DNA from: Fragilaria crotonensis
Taxonomy: Eukaryota; Bacillariophyta; Fragilariophyceae; Fragilariales; Fragilariaceae
Direction: 5' to 3'
Length of the DNA stretch: 64,000 nt
Assembly (NCBI GenBank): GCA_022925895.1
Contig: JAKSYS010000206.1
Location: 1-64,000 of the forward strand
The notes beneath the pieces are model-generated. The model made no database searches, was not told the origin of the DNA, and saw only the letters and a program-made list of their open reading frames with translations. Positions 3,349-43,329 of the stretch are shown piece by piece. The first letter of the stretch is position 1. Each line of letters starts with the position of its first letter. Both the position numbers and the translations under genes were made by a program.

Positions 3349-4391
3349 ATGGCCAACGTGACTGATCCTCTGGCGGGAGCTGTCCACGGGACAGATCCTC
3401 AGAATCTAATGGAGTACATTACTCGGCAACGAATATACGACTGTCGTTATTGGAAAGAGGAGTGTTTTGGACTAACAGCCGCTGACGTTCTAGAAAAGGC
3501 CACCAAACTTACCTGCTACGGGGCTTCTTTTGGAGGGAACTCCCAGCCAACCAAGTTTTTGTGTTTAGTCCTAAAATTACTACAGATCCAACCACCACAG
3601 GAGCTCATTGATTCATTCATACAAGCCGAAGAATTCAAGTATGTGAGAGCTCTGGGTGCCTTTTACAAACGCTTAACAGCCAGACCAGCGGATGTTTACG
3701 AGACGTTGGAACCTCTCTACACTGACTATTCCAAGCTGCGATACCGAGACGTTACGGAATGGAAACTCCATACCATGGATCAACTGATCCATCAATTGCT
3801 CCACGAGGATCGGTGTGTGGCATTTCCTTCACGAGATTGCCATCGCGGGAATCTCTGGAACGAGAGGGCTACTTAGAGTCCAAGTACATTTCACCAATTC
3901 TTCATGTCGTGGGAACTCGATCGCTCGAAGATTATCTGTACTCAAAAGTGTTGGACGGCAGTTCAGCGGCAATGGCGTTATGGGATGCACGAGAGGAAAT
4001 TCGAAAATCAAAAGGATGCAAAATTCAGGATCGAGATTATCCTATCAATCGAGCCACGTCTTCCATGAGTGCCTCGGGTGCGGTGCGAAGTACCCAATCA
4101 TTGGCCACGGAGGAGAGACGTCATGACAATGAAAGGCGAGCCGAACCTGCAAGGTTCGGGAATACTGACGATCCAACACTCTCGTTACCCTCTGTTGCGA
4201 AGAAAGCACGCGTAGATAAGAAGAATGATAATGCAAAGTACGGCGGGCTGTTCAAGTCATCAGGTCGCAAAACTGAGAAGAGCGTGGAGACAGATATTCC
4301 CAGTGAGCAAGGCCTTGTGGCTGCGAATTCAGAGGAGTATTGGAATGAGCAACGAGCTGCGCTTGGTTTGAAGCCCCTTCGGAAGAAGTAG
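3349..4391 (+). CDS. PRP38: Pre-mRNA splicing factor PRP38
   Basis: PRP38 is a component of the U4/U6.U5 tri-snRNP needed for spliceosome activation in the nucleus. The start is the ATG at 3349 (MANVTDPLAGAVHGTDP). The PRP38 core follows: PQNLMEYITRQRIYD, RYWKEECFGLTAADVLEKA, the GG...PTKFLCLVLKLLQIQP block and the YVRALGAFYKRLT block. The domain ends LHEDR then CGISFTRLPSRE, and the tail is basic and Ser-rich. The last two blocks lie in different frames. One missing G at CGG (3811-3813), read as CGGG, gives EDRVCGISFTRLP, the sequence expected for the family, and a protein of about 347 residues. There is no intron signal there, so this looks like a homopolymer error rather than a true break. 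It is divergent from the esterase-like gene. Confidence 0.85.
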
Positions 4392-30501: not shown

Positions 30502-31081
30502 ATGGACTTTAAAGTGTCTCAGATGACAAGCAAGCGAAAGGCAATGGTCCTTCAAGACATTCCACAAGAGGATGCAGACCCCATGCTTCCTATTAGGGAT
30601 CTTTTCACATTTTCTCCTTTTGGTTTATGCTGTCGGCAATGTAAAAAAAATCAATTATTCAGCCTGATGAGCGATGCATCTCCCGGCATTTAAAAAAACA
30701 TGGTATGGACAGCAGAGTTGCTTTGGTTCGTTCTCTTCTCCTCGCTTTCGAATTGCAACTCGAAATTGCAAAGGCCTCAGGATCCATTGAATCATACCGA
30801 AGCGACAAGAATACCTACACCGGTTATTCCTGTAGATGTGGGATGGTTTTTCAATTAAGAAAAGACAACGCACTTCGACATTGCAAAAGAATGGGTTGTG
30901 ACGCATCCAAACTGCAAAAACTCGAGCTAATCAAGCTCTGCTGTGGTCGATATGTGTCCCCATCACAGGTCACTTCTCTATTTGGTGATGGACCATCCCG
31001 CATAAAGAAACAATTTGATTATAAAGAGGCGAGAACTGTCCTTCTCCCATTGCTTCCTCAACGTGAAAAACAGGACCACAT
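30502..31081 (+). CDS. Zinc-finger ORF of a repeat family, interrupted by the 12-kb transposon
   Basis: The start is the ATG at 30,502 (MDFKVSQMTSKRKAM). Two Cys/His clusters are visible: CCRQCKK followed by PDERCISRHLKKHGM, and CRCGMVFQLRKDNALRHCKRMGC. The first cluster is split by one missing A in the A8 run at 30,643-30,650; the frames then continue as one. The frame stays open through YKEARTVLLPLLPQREKQDH and meets the transposon TIR. On the far side of the element, the frame from 43,229 (MYTLLVENIPSHKTTGN) is in phase if the element and one AT copy are left out. The function is unknown. Its place after the repeat at 30,232 suggests it belongs to a mobile element itself. Confidence 0.55.
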
Positions 31082-31102
31082 CGGAAGGTGGCGGGTTTTA
31101 CA
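31082..31102 (+). repeat. Left terminal inverted repeat of the 12-kb transposon
   Basis: 21 bp, starting CGGAAGGTGGCGGG and ending TTTTACA; the perfect inverse of 43,208-43,228. The flanking AT is at 31,080-31,081. Confidence 0.9.
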
Positions 31103-31490
31103 CGCAATATATTTAGTGCAGTGTACCATTTTTTTTTGGGTCCAGTACACCCTGTAAAAATTTATTACACCATTGCATGCGTACGTGCATGTAATATGTG
31201 TTTTACATGTAAATTCGCTGTTGCTCACTGTACCATTTTTTCTTGGGTCCAGTACAGTCCCATACCTCTTCATGGTACACAAAGTATTCTCCGGTTGGCA
31301 TACTCTTGCATTTGTTCGTGTACCGTCGGAACATTACTGTTCATTAGGTGTAGCATCAACTTTCAAGAGTCGTTACAGTACCACAGTATTACACCTGCCA
31401 ACCAGTGCTTCACTGGAGTATGAGTCGTCAATTGCGGTTGATTCAACTACTAGCTAGTAGTAACGTTTCTTTCCATCAATTGGCTGCTAT

Positions 31491-33171
31491 CTACAACTCG
31501 ATGAATGCGTTGATCTTCGGTCGATTTGCACGTTCCACAGCCCTCTGCACAGCACTCGGATCCATTTCTCTCATTTGTGTTCCACCTCCAACCCGTTCCC
31601 TCAGACTCTTGAGTACCCATTCCTCTGCATCCCTCGCATTCCTACTCTTCCTGTCGTCTTCCACAATTCCACCCAACATGTTGAACATTTCTATTCCTTC
31701 GTCACTCCAGCCTCCGTATTCAGAGGAGGAATCTTCGTTCTTCGTGTATTTCCCACCATACGTGGTGTCCTCGGTTCCCCCCTCCTATCTTCATGATATC
31801 TCTTAATCCACTTGTCTATGTACGCATCATAAAGTAGTAGGGCAAATGCCTCGTCAGAAACGGTGACTATGGCATTACCCGTGTCACTTGATGTTGCATC
31901 AGAAATTGTAGACCTGTACTTCTTCCTTGATCCCCATGCTCTCATTCCGCACACGGTTTGCAGAAACTCCCCAACAAACCACAAGAAAGCCTCCTTTTCC
32001 TCCGGTGTCTGTGACTGACGCAGTTTGCAAAGCACTTGGAAAGAATATGGAGGAGGCTCAACTTCATCTCTATGATCCTTCATCTTCAGTAGCTTCATGA
32101 CCGCTTCCGATGCAGACTGTGAGCACGTGCTCCGCTTGGTGTTGAGGGCTCCAGTAACGATGGTCTTGTACATTCTCACGAAGTGATTCACATTGGGTGG
32201 TTTTTCTTGAGCGATCACAACTTCCATCACCTTCTCCATGTGTTCTTCACAGGTAATGAATTTCACCACACGAAAGATGACAGTCTTCACCAGAACTTGT
32301 ATGCGCTCCTGGTACTCTTCGAAGTTGCAGTCCTGGCGGTTCTGTACGACATGTGTCTCTGCTTTTTTGGCGATGAAGTTCCATGCGGAGGTCCTTCGTC
32401 CAGCCATTCCTGGTGTCGTGCTTGTATGAAGAGTCGGGTTGCTGTTGCTGCTGATGGATGCTGTCCATTGGTAACAATGGAGTAGCCGCCGCCAACTTGG
32501 TCTCCAACACGGTCGTTTCCACCAGTTTGGTGGCCTCTGAATGGAGGCCCTCCGTGGTTGACAGACCATCCGGTACCAAGGTGGTTGCGACGTCCGCCGT
32601 CAACAATGGTATGGTCTCTGGATGGAGGCCTTCCATTGTTGACAACAATGCATCGTCCTGCAGTTCCAGCTTCTTGGCCATGTCCGATTTCCACCAATGG
32701 TTGGTCTCTGGATGGAGGCCTTCCGTTGTCGACAACAATGTGTCGTCCTGCAGTTCCAGCTTCTTGGCCACGTCTGATTTCCACCAATGGTTGGTCTCTG
32801 GATGGAGGCCTTGTTCCATTGCGGATATCGATGACAGCACCTCCGAGTTCACTGTTAGTAGCACTTCCGTCCAACTCCTCATCTGCCTCTTCCTCGACGC
32901 TTGAGTCATCTCCGTCCTCTCCGCTAGTCTCATCGTTCTTATGTCTAACGGCAGAAGGTCCGCTTTGGTCTTCCACGACAGCTTCTGCCAGCAATTGTGC
33001 TTCTTTGTCCGCCTTGTCATGGGTACCCTTGTTGACATTGGATTCTTTATCTAAATCACTTACTGTTTTCTTATGGATCTTACTTCCTCCTCTAGCGTTT
33101 CCCTTTTTTCTTTGTTGCGGGTCCTTGTTTTCAGCATCCGACCGCTTCCTCTTTTGTTGTCTGGAGCTCAT
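31491..33171 (-). CDS. orfA of the 12-kb transposon, uncharacterised protein with acidic repeats
   Basis: The start is MSSRQQKRKRSDAENKD at 33,171. The N-terminal part is basic then very acidic, followed by 2.5 tandem 30-residue repeats (NGRPPSRDQPLVEI.., 90-bp period at 32,640-32,830). The C-terminal part looks globular: GMAGRRTSAWNFIAKKAE, VTVSDEAFALLLYDAYIDKW, then GGKYTKN...YGGWSDEGIEMFN, and an end at INAFIEL. Three frames are used. One missing base at GGG 32,436-32,438 and one at C6 31,777-31,782 (both + strand) join them into about 560 residues. The SDEAFALL..Y.DKW and YGGWS..G..xFN blocks recur in hypothetical proteins of diatoms (recalled, not searched). An accessory transposition or host-interface role is a guess. 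Confidence 0.55.
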
Positions 33172-35054
33172 TGTAGAACATGATTTTTATGGGATTGTTT
33201 GTGCATTGTTTTGGACTTGTGCCGCGTAAAATGATTTGAACTGAAGGTGTACACGCTTGTTGTACGAGCATTATGTCAAATGTTGGTGTAACATTGTATA
33301 CGTGATAATTATCTTGATACTACGTATTACCGGTACGTTGCTGCCGTACCATGTCGTGTGGGTTACCATGTGTCTCATTTGAATGCTACTCGTGTACCAT
33401 TTCCGCTGCAGTACTGTGAGTAGTACTATGAATGTCGTGTGGGTTTAAATGCTCATGTACCATTTGCGCAGCGGTACTGTGCGTAATACTTCATACCTTG
33501 TTTACTGTAGTAGTGATACGTTTCGAATTTAAATACTCGTGTACCGTTTCCGCAACGTCACCAGGTACTACTGTGAGTAATACTACTACTTCATACAATT
33601 GTACCTTGTGTACTGCAGTAGAGGTACGTTTTGAATTTTTTTCTTTACTAACAGGGTTTAAATGCTCATGTATACGTACCATTTGCGCAGCGGTACTCGA
33701 GTACTGTGCGTAATACTTCATACCTTGTTTACTGTTGTAGTGATACGTTTTGAATATTTAAATACTCGTGTACCGTTTCCGCAACGTCACCAGGTACTAC
33801 TGTGAGTAGTACTTCATACAATTGTACCTTGTGTACTGTAGAGGTACGTTTTGATTTTTTTCTTCACTTGACTATACTTATATGTATGAAGACCTTTGAT
33901 TGATTGAATATATTTCCTTAGAAATGTATATCAAAATTCAGGAGTGCACATGCACCAATTTTTGTGACGGTCCCACCACATGGTCGCGGCATGTGTCTAA
34001 TTCTTAAATGCATCATAATTCATCCGACACACATATATGTTAACGTAGGATGTAGGAAGACAATTTTTTGTGTTGGTGCCCCACCACATGGTTGGAATGA
34101 TATGTGGATTCATGCGCATCTTTCTTAAGTATCACCTTTATTGCCACTGTATTGAGTGATATTTACTACTATATAGGTACACTTTACAAGTCGTTACTAC
34201 ATAAAAACTCCCATTTAACAACTCAATTGTTATGACATCTATAACATCGTAGATAACTATATATGAGTGCATGCTGTTTTCGTCGTGAAGTCCCACATCG
34301 TGTAATCTTGTTTATTGCTGTATCTTCTCGCTACTCATCGTACGTATTCCTCCGTACTAATTTTGCTCACATTTCCCGCAAATCTTCAGAATTATTCATA
34401 TATTATCACTCGAGTTTGACTGAATGAGGTGTTGTTGTTACCATCCAGTAGCACATCATTGATTTCTGTCTTACGTTGTCAGCGTTTGTTGTTGCCATTT
34501 TGTAACAAGTGAACGTCCTGACAAATTGTAGTGGTATTTGTTTCTGATCTGCTCCCATCGTTTTCGTGTAAGTGTGGCGAGTCATCCTCATTGTTGCCAT
34601 TAGTAACAATTCATCGTTACCAGTAGTAACGATGCATGAGGAGTAGATGTTCACTCTGTTGCGAGGACAGGGATCAGCCAGTTTTGAAGTGGTGTTGTTG
34701 GTGGGCTGCTTTCTTGAAGGGCTTGCGTCTGAATTGTTACCATCCAGTAACAAGAAGCAGCGTCATGCACATGATTGGCGTAAAGATTTTCCGACAGCGA
34801 TGTCGGTTGACTTGATATTTGTCTTTGTTTCCATTCAGTAATGAATATGAGTAGCACGTTATTGCTGTCTTGCAGGTAGTGCCTGTGAACCAGCATCATT
34901 GTTGCCAACCACCAGTAATGATGATGGGTATGCTGATTCGGCGCAGGTGGAGCATGAAACATGTCGTTCATTGTTCTCCGTCTTGGTTTTACATCATCTG
35001 TTGCGGTTAAGCTGCCTAGTAGTACTAAACCGCTTCATTTCACCGACAGCTCCT
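33172..35054. promoter_or_regulatory. Divergent control region between orfA and orfB of the transposon
   Basis: This 1.9-kb spacer separates head-to-head genes. It contains a 213-bp tandem duplication and many GTAC motifs in the left half, and AT-rich unique sequence in the right half. The orfB frame is open upstream to 34,899 but the first ATG is at 35,055. I see no other gene. Confidence 0.4.
33444..33862 (+). repeat. 213-bp direct tandem repeat, two copies
   Basis: The units start with TTTAAATGCTCATGT at 33,444 and 33,657. Both contain GTACCATTTGCGCAGCGGTACT, then TTTCCGCAACGTCACCAGG, then a CATACAATTGTACCTTGTG block, with small indels between copies. Confidence 0.85.
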
Positions 35055-38000
35055 ATGTCGTCTTCTTGTCCTTCTGCTCCTGGCCGTCGTCATATTCCGA
35101 CAACTCCATCTGGGCGTGTTGTCGTACCATTTAGTGAAGCTACGAGTCTGACGAACCGGAAGCGAGGTGCTCGTTCGCCCCCCTCGCATGAACGTCCTTG
35201 TCGTCATCGGGCTTTGCTACGTCGTCTACCCGATGTGATCCCTGATGTTGTTGGTCGCCGGACATATCCTGGTGAGCTCTCGCGATTCATTATTGCTGGT
35301 TGCAACAATCCTCGGGTCTTTTCTGGCACTGAAGTGGATGGCAAGGCCAAGACCCAAAAAAGCAAGAAGCGAAAGGCGTTTTCCCCAACTCAGGGACAAA
35401 TCGCTGCCGTTCTTTCGAAGGCACTCCCCAGGCATGTTGCGGCCTCTTTTGGTGATCGCATACTCCATTACCAGAACTCAAGGGATACTCCGTCTTTGTG
35501 TGTTGACGGCGTGATTGCTTGTGGTACAAAAATCTGCAAGACGACATTTGTGGCGAGTATCCACTTTGCGTTGGTGGACACATTTGGTGTAGGGAATATT
35601 ACTGTCGAACGTTGTGAATACATGGGTAGTGCTCATGACAGGACACGTGTTTTGTCTGTCCCTCACGTTATGGAGATGGTTGTACTTGATGCGGTGTTGG
35701 GACGTACAACAAAGCATGCAAAGCCTCTGACATCGATGGGTGCTACTGTCGACAAGCCTGTCCTCATGCACACCGTTGACGAGAGCTTGACAATGGAAGC
35801 ACACGATGGAAAATTCCGTGCAATTGTTGTTGTGGTCCCTGAAGCGGGTGTGTTCTACTGTCACCGAGAGCGCAGGAAGGCTTGTGTTGGTGTCCCCAAC
35901 AGTCTTGTTCCCATGGACATCAACTGGCTTCGCTTTTCCAAGAACAGCACTTCTTCCATTAGGTTTGCGGCCAATGGCTACGTTTCACGTCTCTGGGGTG
36001 GTGATGCAGACTGTGTGTGGAAGTGGAAGATCCATCGCCGATCACCTGCACTCAACATTCCTGCTCCTCCCTATGTTCCTTTGAGCATCCGTTCTCTGGA
36101 AAGCAGTCGAGGTATTGCTGTGTATCATTTGCGTCAGTGTGCTGATGAAGATTCACCACGTCTCCCACCCGATTTTATTGCTGGTGCTGACTTCTCTTCA
36201 ACACACACTGTAATGGAGCTCCGACAAGCATACTTGATGGAGTATGTGCAGTCGCCATCGGCAAGGAGGGGTTGTCGCCACTATGTTAAACAACATCTCC
36301 ACCGTGTTATTGATCCCGAGACTGTTCTGGTGATCGATGCGGCTGTTGAAGGCGATGCGGATCTTCACATATCCACACACATCCGTCATCCGAATGATAG
36401 GGACAAGGTTTCTCTTTTTCGGGATTCGATTGTTCAGGTTAGACACCTTCCTGCACTTGGTGAAGGTGCCATGCATCTGCTGAGTGATATTCGTCATCAC
36501 GCCTCGAGTGTCCGTGTTACGCGTGGCTCGTCGGGAGTTAGGGGAAACCACGGCGACTTGGGTTCCATGCATCCAGTTGGTACTAGAATTGAGAGAGACA
36601 AGGTCAATGGTCCCAGGAAAAGTCGATACAAGGCGTCCTCTGGGGCAGGAGAACAGCCAGCTTTGGCAGCTGCGGTTCAAGCTGCTGCACGTTTGGCATC
36701 GACGACTGTTCCAGCGGTCCTCCGAGCTATGCAGGACATGGAAGATGATGCTGATCTTGTCCCTGAGGGTGGGATGCTGGGTGATGGCCTGGGGGATGGC
36801 GTTAGCAATGGAGGTTTTGCTCGTGTTAGCCACACAATGGATGTGAGTGTGGATCTGTCGAATGCGTCTCATTACGATGTGAATGACGCATCGCAGTCCT
36901 TCAGTATTTGGACAGAGGATTTTCCCAACACCACATTGAATTGGTACTTTGTTCTTCCCAATGTGTATGGCAAGAAATCCCCAAATGGATGTACCTACAA
37001 TGGTGTTGCGATTAAGTTGACTCACGGTACTCTAATCTCTTGGGACGGTCGACTCATCAGGCACTGCACCTCAGTGATGCAGAGGATGCAGGGTGGTCAT
37101 GTCTACGGCACGTTCTTTGGTGCCAAGTCAGCTGTGGTGCATTATGGTGTCCACCGTGCAATGACTTCTGAGCGACAACGCAGGGCGTGTCTCGAATCAC
37201 GTGACTTTGTCCAAGATGATGGTGGGAAGGTGGGATGCGTTGTTGACGCAGGTGATGGTGGCAAGGTGGAACGCGTTGTTGACGTCGTCCCTGTTCCAGA
37301 ATCCAAGATCATTGTTGACAACAAGGATGATCTCGGCTTGGAGGGATCGTTGTGTTCCTCGGATTCCCTGAGTGAGGGCTGGATTGGTAGAATAGGTGAT
37401 GACCTTGGTCTGTCTGATGACGAATCCAGTGTTGACGAGGGGATACCTATTGGAGATGCTGCTATCGATGGTGACATTTCGGATTGTGGGCTTTGGGATT
37501 TACCTGAAGTGGCAACGTGGAGAATTCCACGTCGACGGGCTGCCTCAGGTTCTGGAGACGGCAGTGATGGAGATCATGAGTCCCTCTTGTCGCCAAGGCC
37601 TTCGGGAGAACGTGGTGAAAGACTTGCACCTGATGTGATTGCTCCGCGAATGGGCGGGAGTTGTGTTGCATGCGAGGAACTGTGCATTGATGGGGGTAAT
37701 ACGACAAGCGTTCGTGATGCCCTGCGATTTGTGTGTTCGGGTGGCCCTCACCGAGCAGTGGTGGATGCCAGAGAGTGTGTGCATCCAAATCAAGTGCTGC
37801 ATCAAGGCAATCGGCCAAAGTTGCATCCGTTGTGTTGTTACCTGCGGCGTCCGATGACGGTTGATGAAGTCAAGATCCATGTCTATTATCCCTACTTTCG
37901 TGTCCGGAACCGGGAGTTTGGATCGCTCTGGGAAGCCGTCCACCCAAGGAACGTTTCAGCTTTTCATTTGCTTCGTGCGTCCCATGTGCTGGTTCCTTGT

Positions 38001-39335
38001 CCACATCTCCAATTCCATTTTGAAGAATTGTGGAAACTGCTACTGCCGGAGTTCACCACGCTGAGAAGTGGTTTGGAGTGGATTGATGACGTCCCATGGT
38101 ACTATATTCGGGTGGTTACTTGCAGGACTAAGTACCCTCACATCCTCTCGTGCGGAGCAATGTACGACACTTGGGTACATGTTCAACGACGTGACTGGGA
38201 TGGATTCCTTCGGGCGATCCGTGGGAATGTGATGGTTGGGGTTGATGGTGATTGTGAGGCTGATGCACGGATGGTTGCCATCGAATCGCTGACACCTGCA
38301 ACTTACCTGGGTGGAGGGTCAATCTACTTCCCGTCTGAAGGCCTTCGAGACATATTTGCGAGGAAGTTTGAACCGTATTTGCCGCATGGTTCGCAAACTC
38401 GTGTTGGAGAACGGGAGAGTGATGGCTCTCCCTCACGACCACATGGACTGGAACAGAGAAGGCTTAGGTACTACTATATGCGGAAGGTCTGCTTGGTGAA
38501 AGCAGAGCCAAGACGAAGCCGAACTTGGTCTCGTGAGGTGACCAGTGGTTCGCTGTTGAAATATGACGAGGACGACCAATTCTTCTGTTATGACGTCGGA
38601 TCGCAGTTGTATGATGAACGCTTCTGTTGGTATGAAGAAAGGTTCGAGGCAGCTACGGAAGTTGCTCCTGGGTTTTCCTGGACATCTCTGCAGAACCTAT
38701 CAAGGGCGTTACATTCGGTCTTGACTCTGTCTACTGCACAGAGACTGTCATCTTTGCCGAGGGGAATTCCTGGCCCACCTCCGCAGGCCGTTGATGGGCA
38801 TGGTGCAGCTTCCGTTAAAACGCTCATCGCAGCACTTCGGGACGTCATGTGTTTTGGATTGAGATTTGCCATGGTGTTCGATCGCATGTGCCATTCTGTG
38901 AGAGTATCCATTTCATGCCTTGGTGGGAATAATGAATTGGTTCATTATCTTCTGTCTTCATTTGCCTCCATGATCATGCAACAAGTCCCTCGAGTAATTC
39001 CACGCTATGTCTTTGCATGTGATGATGCATTTCTTCTTGAGATGTTGGGTGTCGAAATGGTGCGGAATGCTCCTTTTTGTGAGAGGGAGAGAAGTGACAT
39101 TATAGGCATGTTTCGCGATGTGATGCCACGACGAGTGCCACCGCGGCGTCATGTGGGAAGAATACAAGTACAGTCATCATCTGTTGAACAACAAAACGAC
39201 AACGCTGCACGTGTGACGCGTCCTCTGCAGTCCCTTGTTGAACGACGAAATGATGGCACTGCATTTACGACGCGACAAGTACAGTCGTCTGTTGAACGAT
39301 GGAATGATGACACCTTACATGAATACATTTACTAG
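35055..39335 (+). CDS. orfB: large protein with candidate TET/JBP-like 2OG-Fe(II) oxygenase core
   Basis: A single uninterrupted frame; from the ATG at 35,055 (MSSSCPSAPGRRHIP) it encodes 1,426 residues. The N-terminal third is basic, with KKRKAFSPTQGQI. At residues 606-608 HYD begins HYDVNDASQSFSIW. It continues NWYFVLPNVYGKK, GVAIKLTHGTLISWDGR and LIRHCTSV, with the second His at 670, then HVYGTFFGAK. HxD followed about 60 residues later by His after a GxxIxLxxGxL(I/F)xWDG strand is the metal-binding layout of 2-oxoglutarate/Fe(II) dioxygenases, including the TET/JBP nucleic-acid oxidases. The Arg that binds 2OG is not certain. An acidic linker follows, then a Cys-rich region (SCVACEELC, PLCCYLRR) and a long C-terminal domain I do not recognise. 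Fungal KDZ transposons are known to travel with TET/JBP genes. Oxidation of methylated bases is inferred only. Confidence 0.6.
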   Translation: MSSSCPSAPGRRHIPTTPSGRVVVPFSEATSLTNRKRGARSPPSHERPCRHRALLRRLPDVIPDVVGRRTYPGELSRFIIAGCNNPRVFSGTEVDGKAKTQKSKKRKAFSPTQGQIAAVLSKALPRHVAASFGDRILHYQNSRDTPSLCVDGVIACGTKICKTTFVASIHFALVDTFGVGNITVERCEYMGSAHDRTRVLSVPHVMEMVVLDAVLGRTTKHAKPLTSMGATVDKPVLMHTVDESLTMEAHDGKFRAIVVVVPEAGVFYCHRERRKACVGVPNSLVPMDINWLRFSKNSTSSIRFAANGYVSRLWGGDADCVWKWKIHRRSPALNIPAPPYVPLSIRSLESSRGIAVYHLRQCADEDSPRLPPDFIAGADFSSTHTVMELRQAYLMEYVQSPSARRGCRHYVKQHLHRVIDPETVLVIDAAVEGDADLHISTHIRHPNDRDKVSLFRDSIVQVRHLPALGEGAMHLLSDIRHHASSVRVTRGSSGVRGNHGDLGSMHPVGTRIERDKVNGPRKSRYKASSGAGEQPALAAAVQAAARLASTTVPAVLRAMQDMEDDADLVPEGGMLGDGLGDGVSNGGFARVSHTMDVSVDLSNASHYDVNDASQSFSIWTEDFPNTTLNWYFVLPNVYGKKSPNGCTYNGVAIKLTHGTLISWDGRLIRHCTSVMQRMQGGHVYGTFFGAKSAVVHYGVHRAMTSERQRRACLESRDFVQDDGGKVGCVVDAGDGGKVERVVDVVPVPESKIIVDNKDDLGLEGSLCSSDSLSEGWIGRIGDDLGLSDDESSVDEGIPIGDAAIDGDISDCGLWDLPEVATWRIPRRRAASGSGDGSDGDHESLLSPRPSGERGERLAPDVIAPRMGGSCVACEELCIDGGNTTSVRDALRFVCSGGPHRAVVDARECVHPNQVLHQGNRPKLHPLCCYLRRPMTVDEVKIHVYYPYFRVRNREFGSLWEAVHPRNVSAFHLLRASHVLVPCPHLQFHFEELWKLLLPEFTTLRSGLEWIDDVPWYYIRVVTCRTKYPHILSCGAMYDTWVHVQRRDWDGFLRAIRGNVMVGVDGDCEADARMVAIESLTPATYLGGGSIYFPSEGLRDIFARKFEPYLPHGSQTRVGERESDGSPSRPHGLEQRRLRYYYMRKVCLVKAEPRRSRTWSREVTSGSLLKYDEDDQFFCYDVGSQLYDERFCWYEERFEAATEVAPGFSWTSLQNLSRALHSVLTLSTAQRLSSLPRGIPGPPPQAVDGHGAASVKTLIAALRDVMCFGLRFAMVFDRMCHSVRVSISCLGGNNELVHYLLSSFASMIMQQVPRVIPRYVFACDDAFLLEMLGVEMVRNAPFCERERSDIIGMFRDVMPRRVPPRRHVGRIQVQSSSVEQQNDNAARVTRPLQSLVERRNDGTAFTTRQVQSSVERWNDDTLHEYIY

Positions 39336-39366
39336 TACAAGAATTACAACGATGATGTACAAACAG

Positions 39367-42300
39367 CTACTTTGTACGTTGTCGCTTGTGACTCTTGGTT
39401 GACCCACCTGTCAAAGCTTTTCTTGGCACGCCTGTGGTGGCTGTTTTGGTACGGCGTGCTGTTTTGTTACGGCGGGATTGAGGAGAAGGAGGGACAATCC
39501 GTTCCATTCGTGTGAAGCCTTCGTCACCGCTTTCATCAGACTCTGCCATTTTCCCTGTCGAGATGTCGCGGTGCTTTTTATGGATGAAAGAGTCCCATGT
39601 ATTTGCCCATTCACTTTGGGGAAGCATCATGACAATGTATTTCGCATCAGGAATGGTCTGTCCCTGGTCGTCATTGATGCAATCGCTGAATGTATCGGCA
39701 ATTGCCACAGTGGGCCTTCTTATGGAGTCAACATGGACAAGATAGAGTTTGGGTTTGGGACTGTTGGGGATCAGGTCGACCATAAACTTCCTGAATATAG
39801 ATCGGTTGCCCTCCTCACGTTCTGAACCGTCACCTCTGTCATTGTCGTCGTTGGGCATGTTGTTGACGTCAGGTGGATCTTCCTCCCTTTCTGTTTTGCT
39901 GTTGTTGGAATCGGAAAATACCTCGTGGTATGATTCGATCAAAGCGTAGAAACCGGGAGATGTAACACAGACACATTGACCGGAATGTGGAATCGATATG
40001 TTGGATCCGTGTATCACGTTGCAAAGATTGAGAAAAACATGTATGCGAGCGGGAAAAGGCTCGTCATATCCATGCCAGTCTACCAACGCATAGTCAAACC
40101 ATGGTTTCTCTTGATAATTGGGATTGGCACGGTAAATCTGGCCATTGGCTGACTTGTATTCTGTGTGGCAATGCAAAACGCATGGAGTTGTGGTGTGTGG
40201 GAGAACATGCACAGCTAGTGTACTTGATACGTGGGAGTTCATGTGGTAGTGCTTGGGAGACGTATCCTCTCCTTTCTTCTTCTTCTTTGAAGCGTTACGC
40301 TTGCATACAATCACGCCATCAGCATCGGTCTCAAGAGTGTACTTCTTACCTTGAAGGTGATGAGTATTAGGTGCTGTTGATATACGGGGTGAGGACAAAC
40401 TGTCCAAATTTGCAGCACACTTCCGGATTGCAAGATTTTCTACATAACGCATGGCTGCTTGCAGAGTGAATGTTTGTTGACGCTTCTGCGTATTTCGCGT
40501 CGTGTCCTTTGAGATGGTTATGTGGGCGGACTCTGCGTAGCTGCTGTTTGTGACCTCAGGGACGCCAAAGTCGAGGATGTCTTCATCCATGTGCAATACG
40601 AGGTGGGTCTTTATGGTTGTGTTTCCCATTGCACCAGAAAGTCGAGGGGCAACAAACTTCAACGAGCGCATCAGGGATGACACAGCTAGACCCGATCGTT
40701 TGGCAGAAAGACGTGATATGCGGCTTTGCTTGAGCCAAGCGTGCCACTCCAGCAGAGAAGTCAGGAACATCCTCCAGTCTTCGACAAAAGCTGGGTTGCT
40801 GAGTGTCATGTCCACTTCAGCCTCAGAGTGTTTTCTCTTTGACATCTTCGATGACTTGAAAATTTCAGAAAAGTGAGTGGTGGACAGTGAGATGAGCATG
40901 ACAAATATGCAGCCAGCATACTCGTGTCCAGGAATGTTCGCGCCGGAAGTAAAACCCTTTGTGACCGTTGTCTTGGGAACAACTCGATCACTCTGACGGG
41001 ACAAGCGATTACTGATGTCCAACATCAGAATATCAAACCTCCTTGCGGATTCCGAGGCCTTTCCAATTTGCTTGAAAAAGAATCGAGGACATTTTGAACC
41101 ATCCAAGCAGAACAAGATGAAGGATCTCACCGGGACATGCACCAAATATGCCACGATTGTTGTGTGCACCAAACCGAACAGAATCGAATGCATTGATCAG
41201 AAACTGTTGCGAATTAGCCTTCAGCGATGCAAAATCCCTATTGGCAACCATTTGATTGACTGCGTATGGTGTTCGTTTTGCATATGACCTAGCCTTGGAA
41301 TAACCGGACTTCTCAGTTGGACAAACACAAGCGCGACAAAGCTGTGCAACCTTCGATGTGCGGGATTGATAATGACCACAAAGAGAATCGTGGCCAACGG
41401 TATCTCCAAGTATGAAAGGAACATATGGGTGGAGGTGAACGGGGAATGACTTTCCACGATAGTGAAGATCCCACTTCAAGCCAGATTCTTGGAGATCGAG
41501 ATATCCAGACTCACGTAGAATGAAGTCGATTTGAAGGTGATATTCATTAAGACGGTAACAAGCTTCTGAAACATGAGGAGGTGAGATGATGGGAAGGTGT
41601 ACTGGGTCGTGTTGAATCTCCCTCTTGGAATGAACGTTGCTTTATTGGTGTGGTGTTGATGAAACCCAAGACGCGCATCGCTGCAGGGGTTTTGCGTACG
41701 TTGTGTTTCATCAACCCATAAGAAATGACGATTGGCTCCAAACTCAACTTCCCACCACCGCCAATGTCACATGTGGTCTTGTCGATAGCAAGCACACAGG
41801 GAAGTAACATATCCTCGGCTTTCTTAACCAACAAATCGTATGTCTTCAGGTACGACCGACCAGAATTGATGTCCCCCAAAACTAAACCCGAGGGTCGCGC
41901 AAAAGGATCGACATCAGGTTTTTCGGGGTCGTGGAAAATATAGTTCTCGTCTCGATTGAGGTCAGGACATGAAAGGAAAGAATTGAAGACAGCGTGGGCA
42001 TTAAAATAAACAACGTCAACAGTGCAGTTAGAGTACGGGAGGTAGAGATGTTTCACGATGGGAGAAAGACCTTCGTAATCCACACGATCACGTAACTTGT
42101 CGACAACAGTTTTGCGAGAGCTGATGGGAAGGTCGTGGAACGTATGTCCTCTGGAGCATGATCTGACAGCCCACTTCATTACCTCGTCATATGCAATCAT
42201 CGGACATTTTAATCTCTGCAGGGTACGGAGGAGATCAACCTGCACCTCTTCTTCCAAAGAAAATAAGGCACCATCGAGACCACCATTGACCTCGCTCTCC

Positions 42301-42822
42301 AAAGGAAGCACCATGAAAGATGGGAACATTTGTAGCAGGTTCATCGGAATCCTCCGAAGAAATATCAACGTTTGTTTCTGAACTTCCAGCAAAATCATCT
42401 TCGGGAACAGAATGTTTTCCAGCTGCATTATCATTAGTTTCGTCAAAACCATCCGCAACAAAGAAATCGGAGGATTTACGAAAAGAATTGTCAATGTCAG
42501 GGGGGGAATAATTGTATTGATTACCATCAGCAAGTGACATGGAAGCGCTATGACAATGGTTGCCATCCGGTGCGTTGATCATCGTTTGGCCGTGAACAGA
42601 TGAATATGATACACGATCGGACAACAAAATCGGATCTCTGTAAAAGTCCAAGGAACACTGGGGGAAGTTCGAGAAATGGCGAGATAGTCCCATTGGACCA
42701 GAAACGACAGATCGACCACAGGAAGGGCATTGTTCCTTCTCTGGGGAAAGCATCAACCTTTTGTTCGTATCTCGCTTGCGTGCGTTCTCAATCCGGCGGG
42801 ACAGTCGGGATTGAAGGCTCAT
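39367..42822 (-). CDS. CACTA/Plavaka-like DDE transposase of the 12-kb element
   Basis: The start is MSLQSRLSRRIENARKRD at 42,822. The N-terminus has a C2H2-like finger (CPSCGRSVVSGPMGLSRHFSNFPQC). The DDE region has PCVLAIDKTTCDIGGGGKL, SLEPIVISYGLMKHNVRK and MRVLGFINTT, then KWDLHYRGKSFPV, VPFILGDTVGHDSLCGHY, CRACVCPTEKSGY and RFGAHNNRGIFGACPGEILH. This resembles fungal Plavaka transposases (DKT near the first Asp, GD.....LCGH, and a late IHGACPxExLH block). Three breaks each fit one extra base, at AAA 42,301-42,303, TTT 41,641-41,643 and TTTT 41,092-41,095 (+ strand). Without them the frame is continuous for 1,150 residues. The C-terminal domain (NPNYQEKPWFDYALVDW..) and a basic tail complete it. 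The last 80 residues are Lys/Arg/Thr-rich and likely nuclear-targeting. Confidence 0.7.
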
Positions 42823-43207
42823 GGTGGTTGAACCGGCAAAACAGACAGGGCGAAGTGAAGGGGCAACAGAAAGAAGGGAAGGCAGTGAAGTCAGTGAAAG
42901 GAAGAAAGTGACTTGCTCTGTAATATACATGTGGAGCATACTATTTCAAGGCGCAATGATTGAAAATTGAAGTCACGACATCACCATGTGTGTGTCGATA
43001 CGCGTAAAACAACCGGTATGCACGAAACATAGAGATGTGCAGGACACACTTTGGAGTGTTGAACCGTAAAATGCCGTGCTTTTGAAATGGTTGACAGATT
43101 GTAAATGAGGTGCCTAAACACAGAAATAGTACAGAGACATTTACAAATGTGCAAAACGTAACAGAAATGGCCAAAAATTGTAAAATTGTGTACTATGAAA
43201 TAGTACA

Positions 43208-43228
43208 TGTAAAACCCGCCACCTTCCG
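43208..43228 (-). repeat. Right terminal inverted repeat of the 12-kb transposon
   Basis: Perfect inverse of 31,082-31,102; the flanking AT is at 43,229-43,230. Confidence 0.9.
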
Positions 43229-43329
43229 ATGTATACCTTACTGGTGGAAAACATCCCTAGTCACAAAACAACAGGCAATACCAAGTATTCTTCCCGGCTC
43301 ATCTACAGTTTCCAGTCATTACAAATACA

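Follow-up and report, generated by a model that had tools for sequence, protein, structure and literature searches.

A PlavakaB-type transposon of the diatom Fragilaria crotonensis with a candidate 2OG-Fe(II) oxygenase gene

The window (the whole 64,000-nucleotide stretch of Fragilaria crotonensis DNA that was analysed) contains a copy of a large cut-and-paste transposon lineage of this diatom, which is shown by its ends, its copies and their 2-bp target duplications, a recurrent gene layout and purifying selection on its three genes (Table 1). With moderate confidence, we further read it as a Plavaka lineage (PlavakaB-type, CACTA-related) whose gene set is orfA–oxygenase–transposase and in which orfB encodes a DNA-base oxygenase that counters silencing: orfB, as judged from its sequence, would fold as an Fe(II)/2-oxoglutarate dioxygenase, would act on DNA bases, most likely by oxidising 5-methylcytosine or another modified base, would counter host silencing by acting at or near element copies, and would work in trans for the whole element family. 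This reading draws on the ends and 2-bp duplications of the copies, the Plavaka match, a sister subfamily with the same three genes, the dN/dS values, an invariant HxD...H motif, sub-threshold matches to a Tet-like family, the shared layout (including the oxygenase slot at locus C87) and the existence of fungal Plavaka elements with TET/JBP genes (PMC12730594). Counted against it were the lack of a family match above cut-off, the lack of an obvious 2OG-binding Arg, an orfB-less form found at three sites and a weak CpG signal.

Table 1. Features of the window copy (positions in the window).
Feature	Position	Strand	Remarks
Whole element	31079..43231	.	PlavakaB-type DNA transposon, 12,153 bp
Left 2-bp flank	31077..31078	.	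CA; expected target duplication, unlike right flank
Left terminal inverted repeat	31079..31102	+	CATCGGAAGGTGGCGGGTTTTACA
Subterminal direct repeats	31119..31256	+	two of 31 nt, 31119-31149 and 31226-31256; putative transposase binding sites (a guess)
orfA	31691..33171	-	accessory protein without known domain; overlapping frames here
Divergent non-coding region	33172..35054	.	orfA/orfB interval, 1.9 kb
orfB	35055..39335	+	candidate 2OG-Fe(II) oxygenase; uninterrupted frame, 1426 aa when counted from ATG; start at 34899 if TTG is used
orfB predicted catalytic core	36840..37127	+	HxD codons 36870-36878, distal His codon 37062-37064
Transposase	39367..42939	-	four separate frames here
Match to Pfam PF18759	41559..42032	-	Plavaka transposase
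Right terminal inverted repeat	43208..43231	-	perfect complement of left arm over 24 bp
Right 2-bp flank	43232..43233	.	TA

Ends, copies and gene layout

The original prediction was that of a complete-looking element bounded by perfect 21-bp inverted repeats. The repeats are real, and since they recur at other loci they are not due to chance, but they are perfect over 24 bp and end 3 bp further out. The predicted arrangement of three genes and a divergent non-coding interval was recovered as such, with orfB on the strand opposite to orfA and the transposase gene. The term 'complete-looking' calls for a reservation: in the window copy, the transposase lies in four frames and orfA in at least two. 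In other copies, the transposase is a single open frame (836 aa in C254, 940 aa in C832). As for orfA, its N-terminal and C-terminal parts are in different frames in subfamily-A copies (307 and 515 aa in C516) and are both covered by a single 450-aa frame in the subfamily-B copy C265; the gene model may involve a frameshift or an intron. The four sister copies differ by 104 gap runs versus 32 singleton substitutions, and this preponderance of indels makes assembly error as likely as decay.

The transposase is Plavaka-like, as anticipated: it matched PF18759 with 26.6 bits, for a cut-off of 26.3. The 836-aa frame of C254 scored just under the cut-off (26.2 bits) and contains CRAC, which may be the C(2)C part of a Plavaka hallmark, C(2)C and H(3–4)H between the second D and the last E. 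At E ≤ 0.001, Plavaka matches numbered 80 in the diatom's own genome and none in the 14 control genomes. Membership of the KDZ group was rejected: when the transposase frames were scanned against Pfam, no KDZ family appeared at E ≤ 10, and Plavaka was the sole family with a score at or close to its cut-off. The ends point the same way, PlavakaB termini being given as 5'-CATCA..TGATG-3' in PMC12730594: those of subfamily B are exactly CATCA..TGATG and those of the window subfamily, CATCG..CGATG, are one base off, so that termini and 2-bp duplication fit the PlavakaB type published there.

The host is indeed a stramenopile and, as predicted, further copies with the ends of the window copy are present elsewhere in its genome, i.e. 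the element is a mobile unit with repeated ends. Identical 2-bp flanks (TA, TT or AA) were found at eight of nine distinct two-ended insertions, the exception being the window copy (C516, C446 and C625 were not scorable). A sister subfamily, about 70% identical at the DNA level, carries the same three genes, and its 11.7-kb copies have matching target duplications.

Genome-wide, where 122 orfA loci were counted, there are 55 transposase–orfA pairs lying within 20 kb, and 53 of them have a common layout in which the two genes use the same strand. A scored orfB relative occupies the same slot at at least 16 of 65 transposase loci (orfB counts are lower bounds, 32 of 416 first-look candidates having been scored), and the orfB-type gene is convergent to the transposase gene in all neighbouring pairs examined except one. 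Slot and strand are kept in elements whose transposases are about 40–73% identical to that of the window; at C87, for instance, an oxygenase frame sits in this slot beside a transposase that is only 44% identical. Over 15 loci, orfB and transposase identities (several rows averaged by hand) gave a rho of 0.67, which fell to a non-significant 0.46 once the four sister copies were left out. A look for the ends of the divergent C1 element revealed no inverted repeat in 4.5 kb. The transposase and orfA are under purifying selection, with dN/dS values of 0.11 and 0.22, respectively; our guess is that orfA probably binds DNA or assists transposition as a co-factor.

orfB as a candidate oxygenase

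The presence of an accessory gene in the element was substantiated: orfB has a catalytic-looking HxD...H motif and is maintained by selection. All 46 aligned orfB-family sequences share this motif and a further Asp three residues on without variation, and the gene is under purifying selection (dN/dS 0.22; 0.07 in the core), the lowest value being found in the 100-codon stretch that holds HxD and the distal His. On these sequence grounds, orfB is probably an oxygenase. The more specific TET/JBP identity fared less well: HxD...H is present, but no TET/JBP profile matched above cut-off, and we regard this type as possible. The best matches were those to PF20515 ('Tet-like 2OG-Fe(II) oxygenase'), below threshold (E about 0.05; best score 14 bits for a cut-off of 27): the relative P0147 aligned with almost the entire profile, and a trimmed part of P0040 with the half containing HxD...H; full-length P0040 gave no PF20515 match at E ≤ 1. 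Two of the 58 sequences in a second set of relatives matched PF20515 at E ≤ 10, and overall, out of about a hundred orfB relatives, no more than two or three matched the Tet-like family, all below cut-off. A PF20515 search gave no match in the diatom's own genome nor in the 14 controls and is thus uninformative. The fungal PE type of TET/JBP was rejected for orfB, its hallmark being HxE (PMC12730594) versus HxD in the whole alignment.

Other searches were negative: at E ≤ 1, the 46 family members gave no match to any oxygenase family of Pfam, orfB and the relatives scanned remained below cut-off in Pfam, NCBIfam, PHROG and PDB-sequence searches, tblastn against phages with orfB or its domain returned nothing above cut-off, and eight pattern matches in IMG/VR yielded no confirmed one. 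The 2OG-binding Arg usually lies about 10–16 residues past the distal His. In the orfB family, there is no conserved Arg at this spacing and the only invariant basic residue of this region is a Lys, located 21 residues past the distal His in the protein of the window copy and 19 past it in P0013, the distance being longer in sequences with loop inserts (the distant relative P0147 ends without it). A Lys in place of the Arg is found in prolyl 4-hydroxylases. This residue, along with the merely sub-threshold Tet-like similarity, would suit a 2OG-Fe(II) oxygenase acting on RNA, histones or another protein (prolyl-hydroxylase-like or JmjC-like) and aiding the transposon via chromatin or RNA instead of base oxidation. 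We hold such a substrate to be rather unlikely, since no enzyme family other than the Tet-like one was matched by two or more orfB relatives and since the transposon-borne oxygenases described from fungi are of the TET/JBP type (PMC12730594). It is quite improbable that orfB is no oxygenase at all and that its HxD...H belongs to another enzyme or DNA-binding fold serving the transposon, e.g. a regulator or a nuclease accessory: the absence of a family match above any cut-off would agree with this, but the invariance of HxD and the distal His, the dN/dS minimum around them and the register of the PF20515 matches argue against it.

A DNA-base oxygenase, the function that we favour, may demethylate the element's own copies. 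The excess of CpG transitions is strong among the four sister copies alone (7 of 1140 CpG versus 2 of 4375 other GC sites) and weak once the window subfamily is added to them (8 of 1754 versus 11 of 6924, odds 2.9, p 0.04); the observed/expected CpG ratio is only mildly low (0.85 versus 0.93 for the whole window).

Carriage of orfB and the window insertion

The original prediction would have been contradicted by the lack of a second copy with the same ends, or by copies devoid of orfA/orfB whose ends bound only unrelated DNA. Further copies with these ends are present. Some copies lack orfB, but the ones that were compared derive from the same element by deletion and do not consist of unrelated DNA; the small elements C209, C111 and C669 share little with the window copy beyond the ends. 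One orfB-less form is present at three sites, i.e. copies without orfB have moved, so that orfB is not needed in cis. For 12 of the 29 orfB loci scored, no Plavaka-type transposase match lay within 10 kb. Both observations would be expected if orfB were a host or other mobile gene carried as mere cargo, with no role for the transposon. This is quite improbable, considering the purifying selection on orfB, its constant slot and strand beside diverged transposases, and the fact that four of these 12 loci adjoin another, MULE-like transposase type: a frame at C63 matched MULE (E 0.0045) and a SWIM zinc finger (E 0.014), both below cut-off, and frames related to it weakly matched the same part of MULE. 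The orfB family is apparently shared between transposase types. We tentatively propose, at somewhat less than even confidence, that in diatoms, separately from fungi, transposon-borne HxD oxygenases acting on modified DNA bases form an anti-silencing module passed between the unrelated Plavaka and MULE-like transposase superfamilies.

The insertion site of the window copy is not proven. The empty-site comparison suggested initially was negative: with a query in which the two flanks are joined, no locus covering the pair of them was recovered, the left flank running only 5 bases into the right one at C776 and C413, and with two of three frames open there, an open frame across the join is not decisive. 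The unlike dinucleotides, CA and TA, and the failure to find the flanks joined elsewhere would be explained if the window copy were an assembly join of two insertions via a shared repeat and not one 12.1-kb insertion, which is quite unlikely given that the two near-identical left-flank relatives run on with those 5 bases and that the 11.7-kb sister copies have the same genes and matching duplications.

Comparison with known systems

Fungi have similar pairings of transposon and oxygenase, in which the enzyme presumably removes silencing marks from DNA. If orfB does oxidise DNA bases, mobile elements in a lineage remote from fungi would have evolved counter-silencing, or received it by spread, through an enzyme family that is nameless in the profile libraries searched here; our data suggest a fungal-like oxygenase trick in a distant lineage. 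The genome has copies with and without orfB, some nearly identical otherwise (C254, C516, C446 and C371 being near-identical copies that lack it), which makes self-protection from methylation directly testable. KDZ elements reportedly carry TET/JBP genes, in an account attributed to Iyer et al. 2014, and likewise combine a transposase with a DNA oxygenase (here a candidate); they differ in that the transposase described here matches Plavaka and, at E ≤ 10, no KDZ family.

The initial claim that no such arrangement had been described is partly wrong, since fungal Plavaka elements with TET/JBP genes, and their ends, have been characterised (PMC12730594, 2025). The TET+ PlavakaB elements of Agaricus bisporus and Gymnopus confluens resemble the diatom element by their Plavaka transposase, the oxygenase gene inside, CATC..GATG ends and a 2-bp (or 3-bp) target duplication. 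They differ by their fungal hosts and PE-type HxE (HxD here), while the diatom element also has orfA and an oxygenase without a Pfam match above cut-off. In fungal IS3EU elements, the TET gene has the transposase on one side and a third gene on the other (PMC12730594), which is also the position of orfB here. Fungal TET/JBP genes of the PU, AG and PE types occur across transposon superfamilies (PMC12730594), again one oxygenase family with apparently unrelated transposases; however, no known TET family was matched by orfB above cut-off, and the carriers listed in the abstract of that paper include no MULE-type transposase whereas some orfB relatives adjoin a MULE-like one.

Outside fungi, Plavaka-type transposases are found, as here, in non-fungal eukaryotes, namely in Amoebidium, within its 'giant repeats' (PMC11244446), and in Auxenochlorella, a green alga, within EnSpm-Plavaka transposons (PMC12633428). 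The extra genes of Amoebidium are often tyrosine recombinases (PMC11244446), and the excerpts of the two sources mention no oxygenase. While fungal Plavaka elements with TET/JBP genes are already known, the new points here are the host, a diatom, and an oxygenase family that is unnamed and that transposases of different types apparently share.

Ends, copies and target sites

The inverted repeats that the original prediction had seen at the ends of the element are present, but comparison with other copies shifts the ends to 31079 and 43231 and extends the perfect repeat to 24 bases (CATCGGAAGGTGGCGGGTTTTACA). The expectation of further copies was borne out: a search of the same genome (62.1 Mb, 881 contigs, of which C122 carries the window) with one 301-base query per end returned 18 and 15 matches, some of them on C629, C552, C153 and C404. 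When insertions were counted, C466, C183 and C265 were taken as one, and C209 and C111 likewise, because the flanks are common within each group. Of the insertions in which the two ends could both be read, nine are distinct; eight of these have identical 2-bp flanks (TA, TT or AA), the exception being the window copy (CA/TA). A repeated sequence family adjoins this copy; its left flank has more than 20 relatives in the genome (68–100% identity).

Element copies and other features of the F. crotonensis genome (C numbers, contigs and the copies on them; L numbers, loci)
Feature	Contig	Position	Size	Observation
Subfamily A, window copy	C122	31079-43231	12.1 kb	
Subfamily A	C254		7.1 kb	
Subfamily A	C516		7.1 kb	
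Subfamily A (L019, L020)	C371	19265-32524	12.7 kb	about 5.7 kb inserted inside transposase region
Subfamily A (L022)	C571	27512-31097	3.0 kb	
Subfamily A, one-ended	C625, C446			
Subfamily B	C466, C183, C265, C124		11.65-11.74 kb each	
Subfamily B	C832		8.6 kb	
Short element	C209	25084-26998		
Short element	C111	38050-39966		
Short element with family ends (L036)	C669	20366-27638		589-aa frame
Repeated family beside element	C122	30705-31078; 43232 onward		
Tandem repeat within orfA	C122	32604-32812		90-bp unit x 2.3
Plavaka-matching transposase frame	C122	41550-42566		
Overlapping frames	C122	12428-16068		ankyrin repeats, protein kinase domain; possibly one gene
Single frame	C122	60346-61629		methyltransferase and EF-1 guanine nucleotide exchange domains; odd pairing
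Neighbourhood of orfB relative (L070)	C63	92000-98300		1114-aa frame, convergent
Neighbourhood of orfB locus C183:62623 (L071)	C183	64800-71000		convergent frames
orfB relative and relative of C63 frame	C776	3372-6319		convergent
orfB relative and relative of C63 frame	C873	52192-55517		convergent

Subfamily B is 64–80% identical to the window element, varying by segment, and its four full copies are 99.1–99.5% identical to one another; alignment to the window element shows that all four keep orfA, orfB and transposase in the window's order. The original prediction regarded copies devoid of orfA/orfB, with terminal repeats around unrelated DNA only, as evidence against itself: full copies keep the trio, but orfB-less copies do exist, by deletion. 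One deletion (element positions 4192/9215) removed orfB from C254, C516 and C446, which lie at three different sites, judging from their right flanks; the orfB-deleted form has therefore moved at least twice. C371, whose insert carries what we take to be reverse-transcriptase- and RNase-H-like frames, lost orfB through a different deletion, and C832 also lacks it. The smaller elements C209, C111 and C669 have little beyond the ends in common with the window copy. The C669 frame, which we take to resemble a Harbinger-type transposase, is probably a nested insertion, while C571, C209 and C111 (1.9–3.0 kb) are MITE-like, with the two ends and the 2-bp duplications retained.

Gene layout and selective constraint

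After row merging, the genome holds at least 29 orfB, 65 transposase and 122 orfA loci; these are lower bounds, as scoring covered 32 of 416 candidates for orfB, 72 of 305 for the transposase and 150 of 211 for orfA, and the orfA count was moreover taken among the matches listed. In 53 of the 55 transposase–orfA pairs within 20 kb, orfA lies 3' of the transposase on the same strand, and such an orfA is found within 12 kb of 51 of the 65 transposases (about 3 expected from random placement). A scored orfB sits between the two, on the opposite strand, at 16 of the 65 transposase loci, with the same orientation in 18 of 19 transposase–orfB pairs within 20 kb. A second transposase that adjoins a complete trio on C160 accounts for the sole deviating orfB pair and for one of the two deviating orfA pairs. 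On C87, the transposase shares 44% and orfA 42% identity with the window counterparts, and orfB falls outside the scored list; in the gap, the one such gap read, the same slot is occupied by oxygenase frames that include HxD and the distal His. Since the slot is retained despite this divergence, the orfA–orfB–transposase layout is old within this lineage.

Frames were read as assembled, with no mending of the sequence. The window orfB is open from its ATG over 1426 aa, whereas orfB is divided into at least two frames in all four full subfamily-B copies (1137 + 238 aa in C466, more pieces in C183, C265 and C124), so that, among the copies compared, only the window's has an orfB open over its full length. 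Conversely, the window transposase is split over four frames and its orfA over at least two; open transposase frames exist in C254 (836 aa) and C832 (940 aa). The N- and C-terminal parts of orfA occupy separate frames in subfamily A (307 and 515 aa in C516) and are spanned by a single 450-aa frame in C265. The four sister copies show 104 gap runs against 32 singleton substitutions, so that assembly error and decay are not separable as the source of broken frames. The copy number of the 90-bp tandem unit in orfA may vary among copies.

All three genes are clearly under constraint, with dN/dS ratios that are approximate, dS being about 1.3 and near saturation: 0.22 for orfB (Nei–Gojobori, C122 vs C466, 1087 codons; 0.24 in a second stretch of 197 codons), 0.07 for its codons 600–700, which contain HxD...H, 0.11 for the transposase (C254 vs C832, 711 codons) and 0.22 for orfA (C516 vs C265, 177 codons). 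For orfA of C516 vs C832 (111 codons), synonymous sites were saturated and gave no usable ratio. The element lineage is real, repeated and constrained.

Identity of the encoded proteins

As predicted, the transposase is Plavaka-like: the window frame scores 26.6 bits against Pfam Plavaka (cut-off 26.3), and that of C254 26.2 bits. With this profile, matches at E<=0.001 number 80 in the F. crotonensis genome and zero across 14 control genomes. For orfB, 45 database relatives were found among the best 7999 candidates scored, and 57 among 8000 with a seven-row domain alignment; none carries a functional name, nor is the family named in any library searched. The H, D and distal H, and an Asp three residues past HxD, are invariant in the 46-row alignment. 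Two relatives approach PF20515 (Tet-like 2OG-Fe(II) oxygenase), both below its 27-bit cut-off: P0147 (E 0.054, profile positions 28–209 of 211) and a trimmed piece of P0040 (E 0.05, positions 99–208), full-length P0040 giving no match at E<=1. In a scan of 58 members, only PF20515 and two unrelated families were matched by two members. We conclude that orfB is a probable oxygenase, the alternative being a different fold. In its metagenomic relative P0045, a DUF6824 domain (PF20710, E 8.2e-13) is part of the same protein, possibly a host-side use of the oxygenase. The 50 relatives of orfA likewise bear no functional name. P0002 (88% identical to orfB) and P0047 (90% identical to orfA) each lie on a 10,858-base contig, probably one and the same contig of a related diatom.

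No Plavaka-type transposase match lies within 10 kb of 12 of the 29 orfB loci. Two of these neighbourhoods were read directly: the C63 frame matches MULE (E 0.0045) and SWIM (E 0.014) below cut-off, and one C183 frame has a weak ZSWIM RNaseH-like match (E 0.0035). A genome search placed relatives of the C63 frame beside two further orfB loci (C776, C873). From these sub-cut-off profile matches and the relatives of the C63 frame, a putative MULE-like transposase adjoins at least four of the 12 loci. The orfB family is likely common to the Plavaka and MULE-like superfamilies. The C63 frame has matches on 21 contigs, with a scored orfB nearby on only three.

Proposed working and comparison with known elements

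By analogy with its family, the Plavaka transposase would cut and paste at the 24-bp ends, with 2-bp duplication. orfB would be expressed from the divergent promoter region and might lift silencing by oxidising a modified base in the DNA of the element; since copies without orfB do move, its action would be in trans or at the level of expression. A CpG transition excess was sought among copies, as this trace is expected if they are methylated, and is weak. Alternatively, orfB could be a 2OG enzyme that acts on something other than DNA, or cargo. According to a transcriptome study (PMC9732472), mobile-element genes make up about 25% of the F. crotonensis genes raised at high pH, and expression data therefore exist.

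Plavaka elements are reported from a green alga (PMC12633428) and an ichthyosporean (PMC11244446); among the open-licence papers listed by literature searches, none was seen to describe elements of this kind in a diatom. Fungal transposons carry TET/JBP genes, and PMC12730594 assigns every TET-bearing Plavaka that it reports to PlavakaB, whose ends (CATCA..TGATG) and 2–3-bp duplications closely fit the diatom element. The fungal Plavaka-borne genes there are of PE type, with HxE, whereas the diatom orfB has HxD; MULE is absent from the TET/JBP carriers in the abstract of that source, whereas some diatom orfB relatives adjoin a putative MULE-like transposase. The same text describes IS3EU elements with a TET gene between transposase and alpha-kinase gene, so that a mid-position oxygenase in a three-gene set is not new by itself; the view in the original prediction that the arrangement is undescribed is partly wrong. 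With its probable oxygenase, the element is a variant of the transposon–oxygenase pairing already known from fungi.
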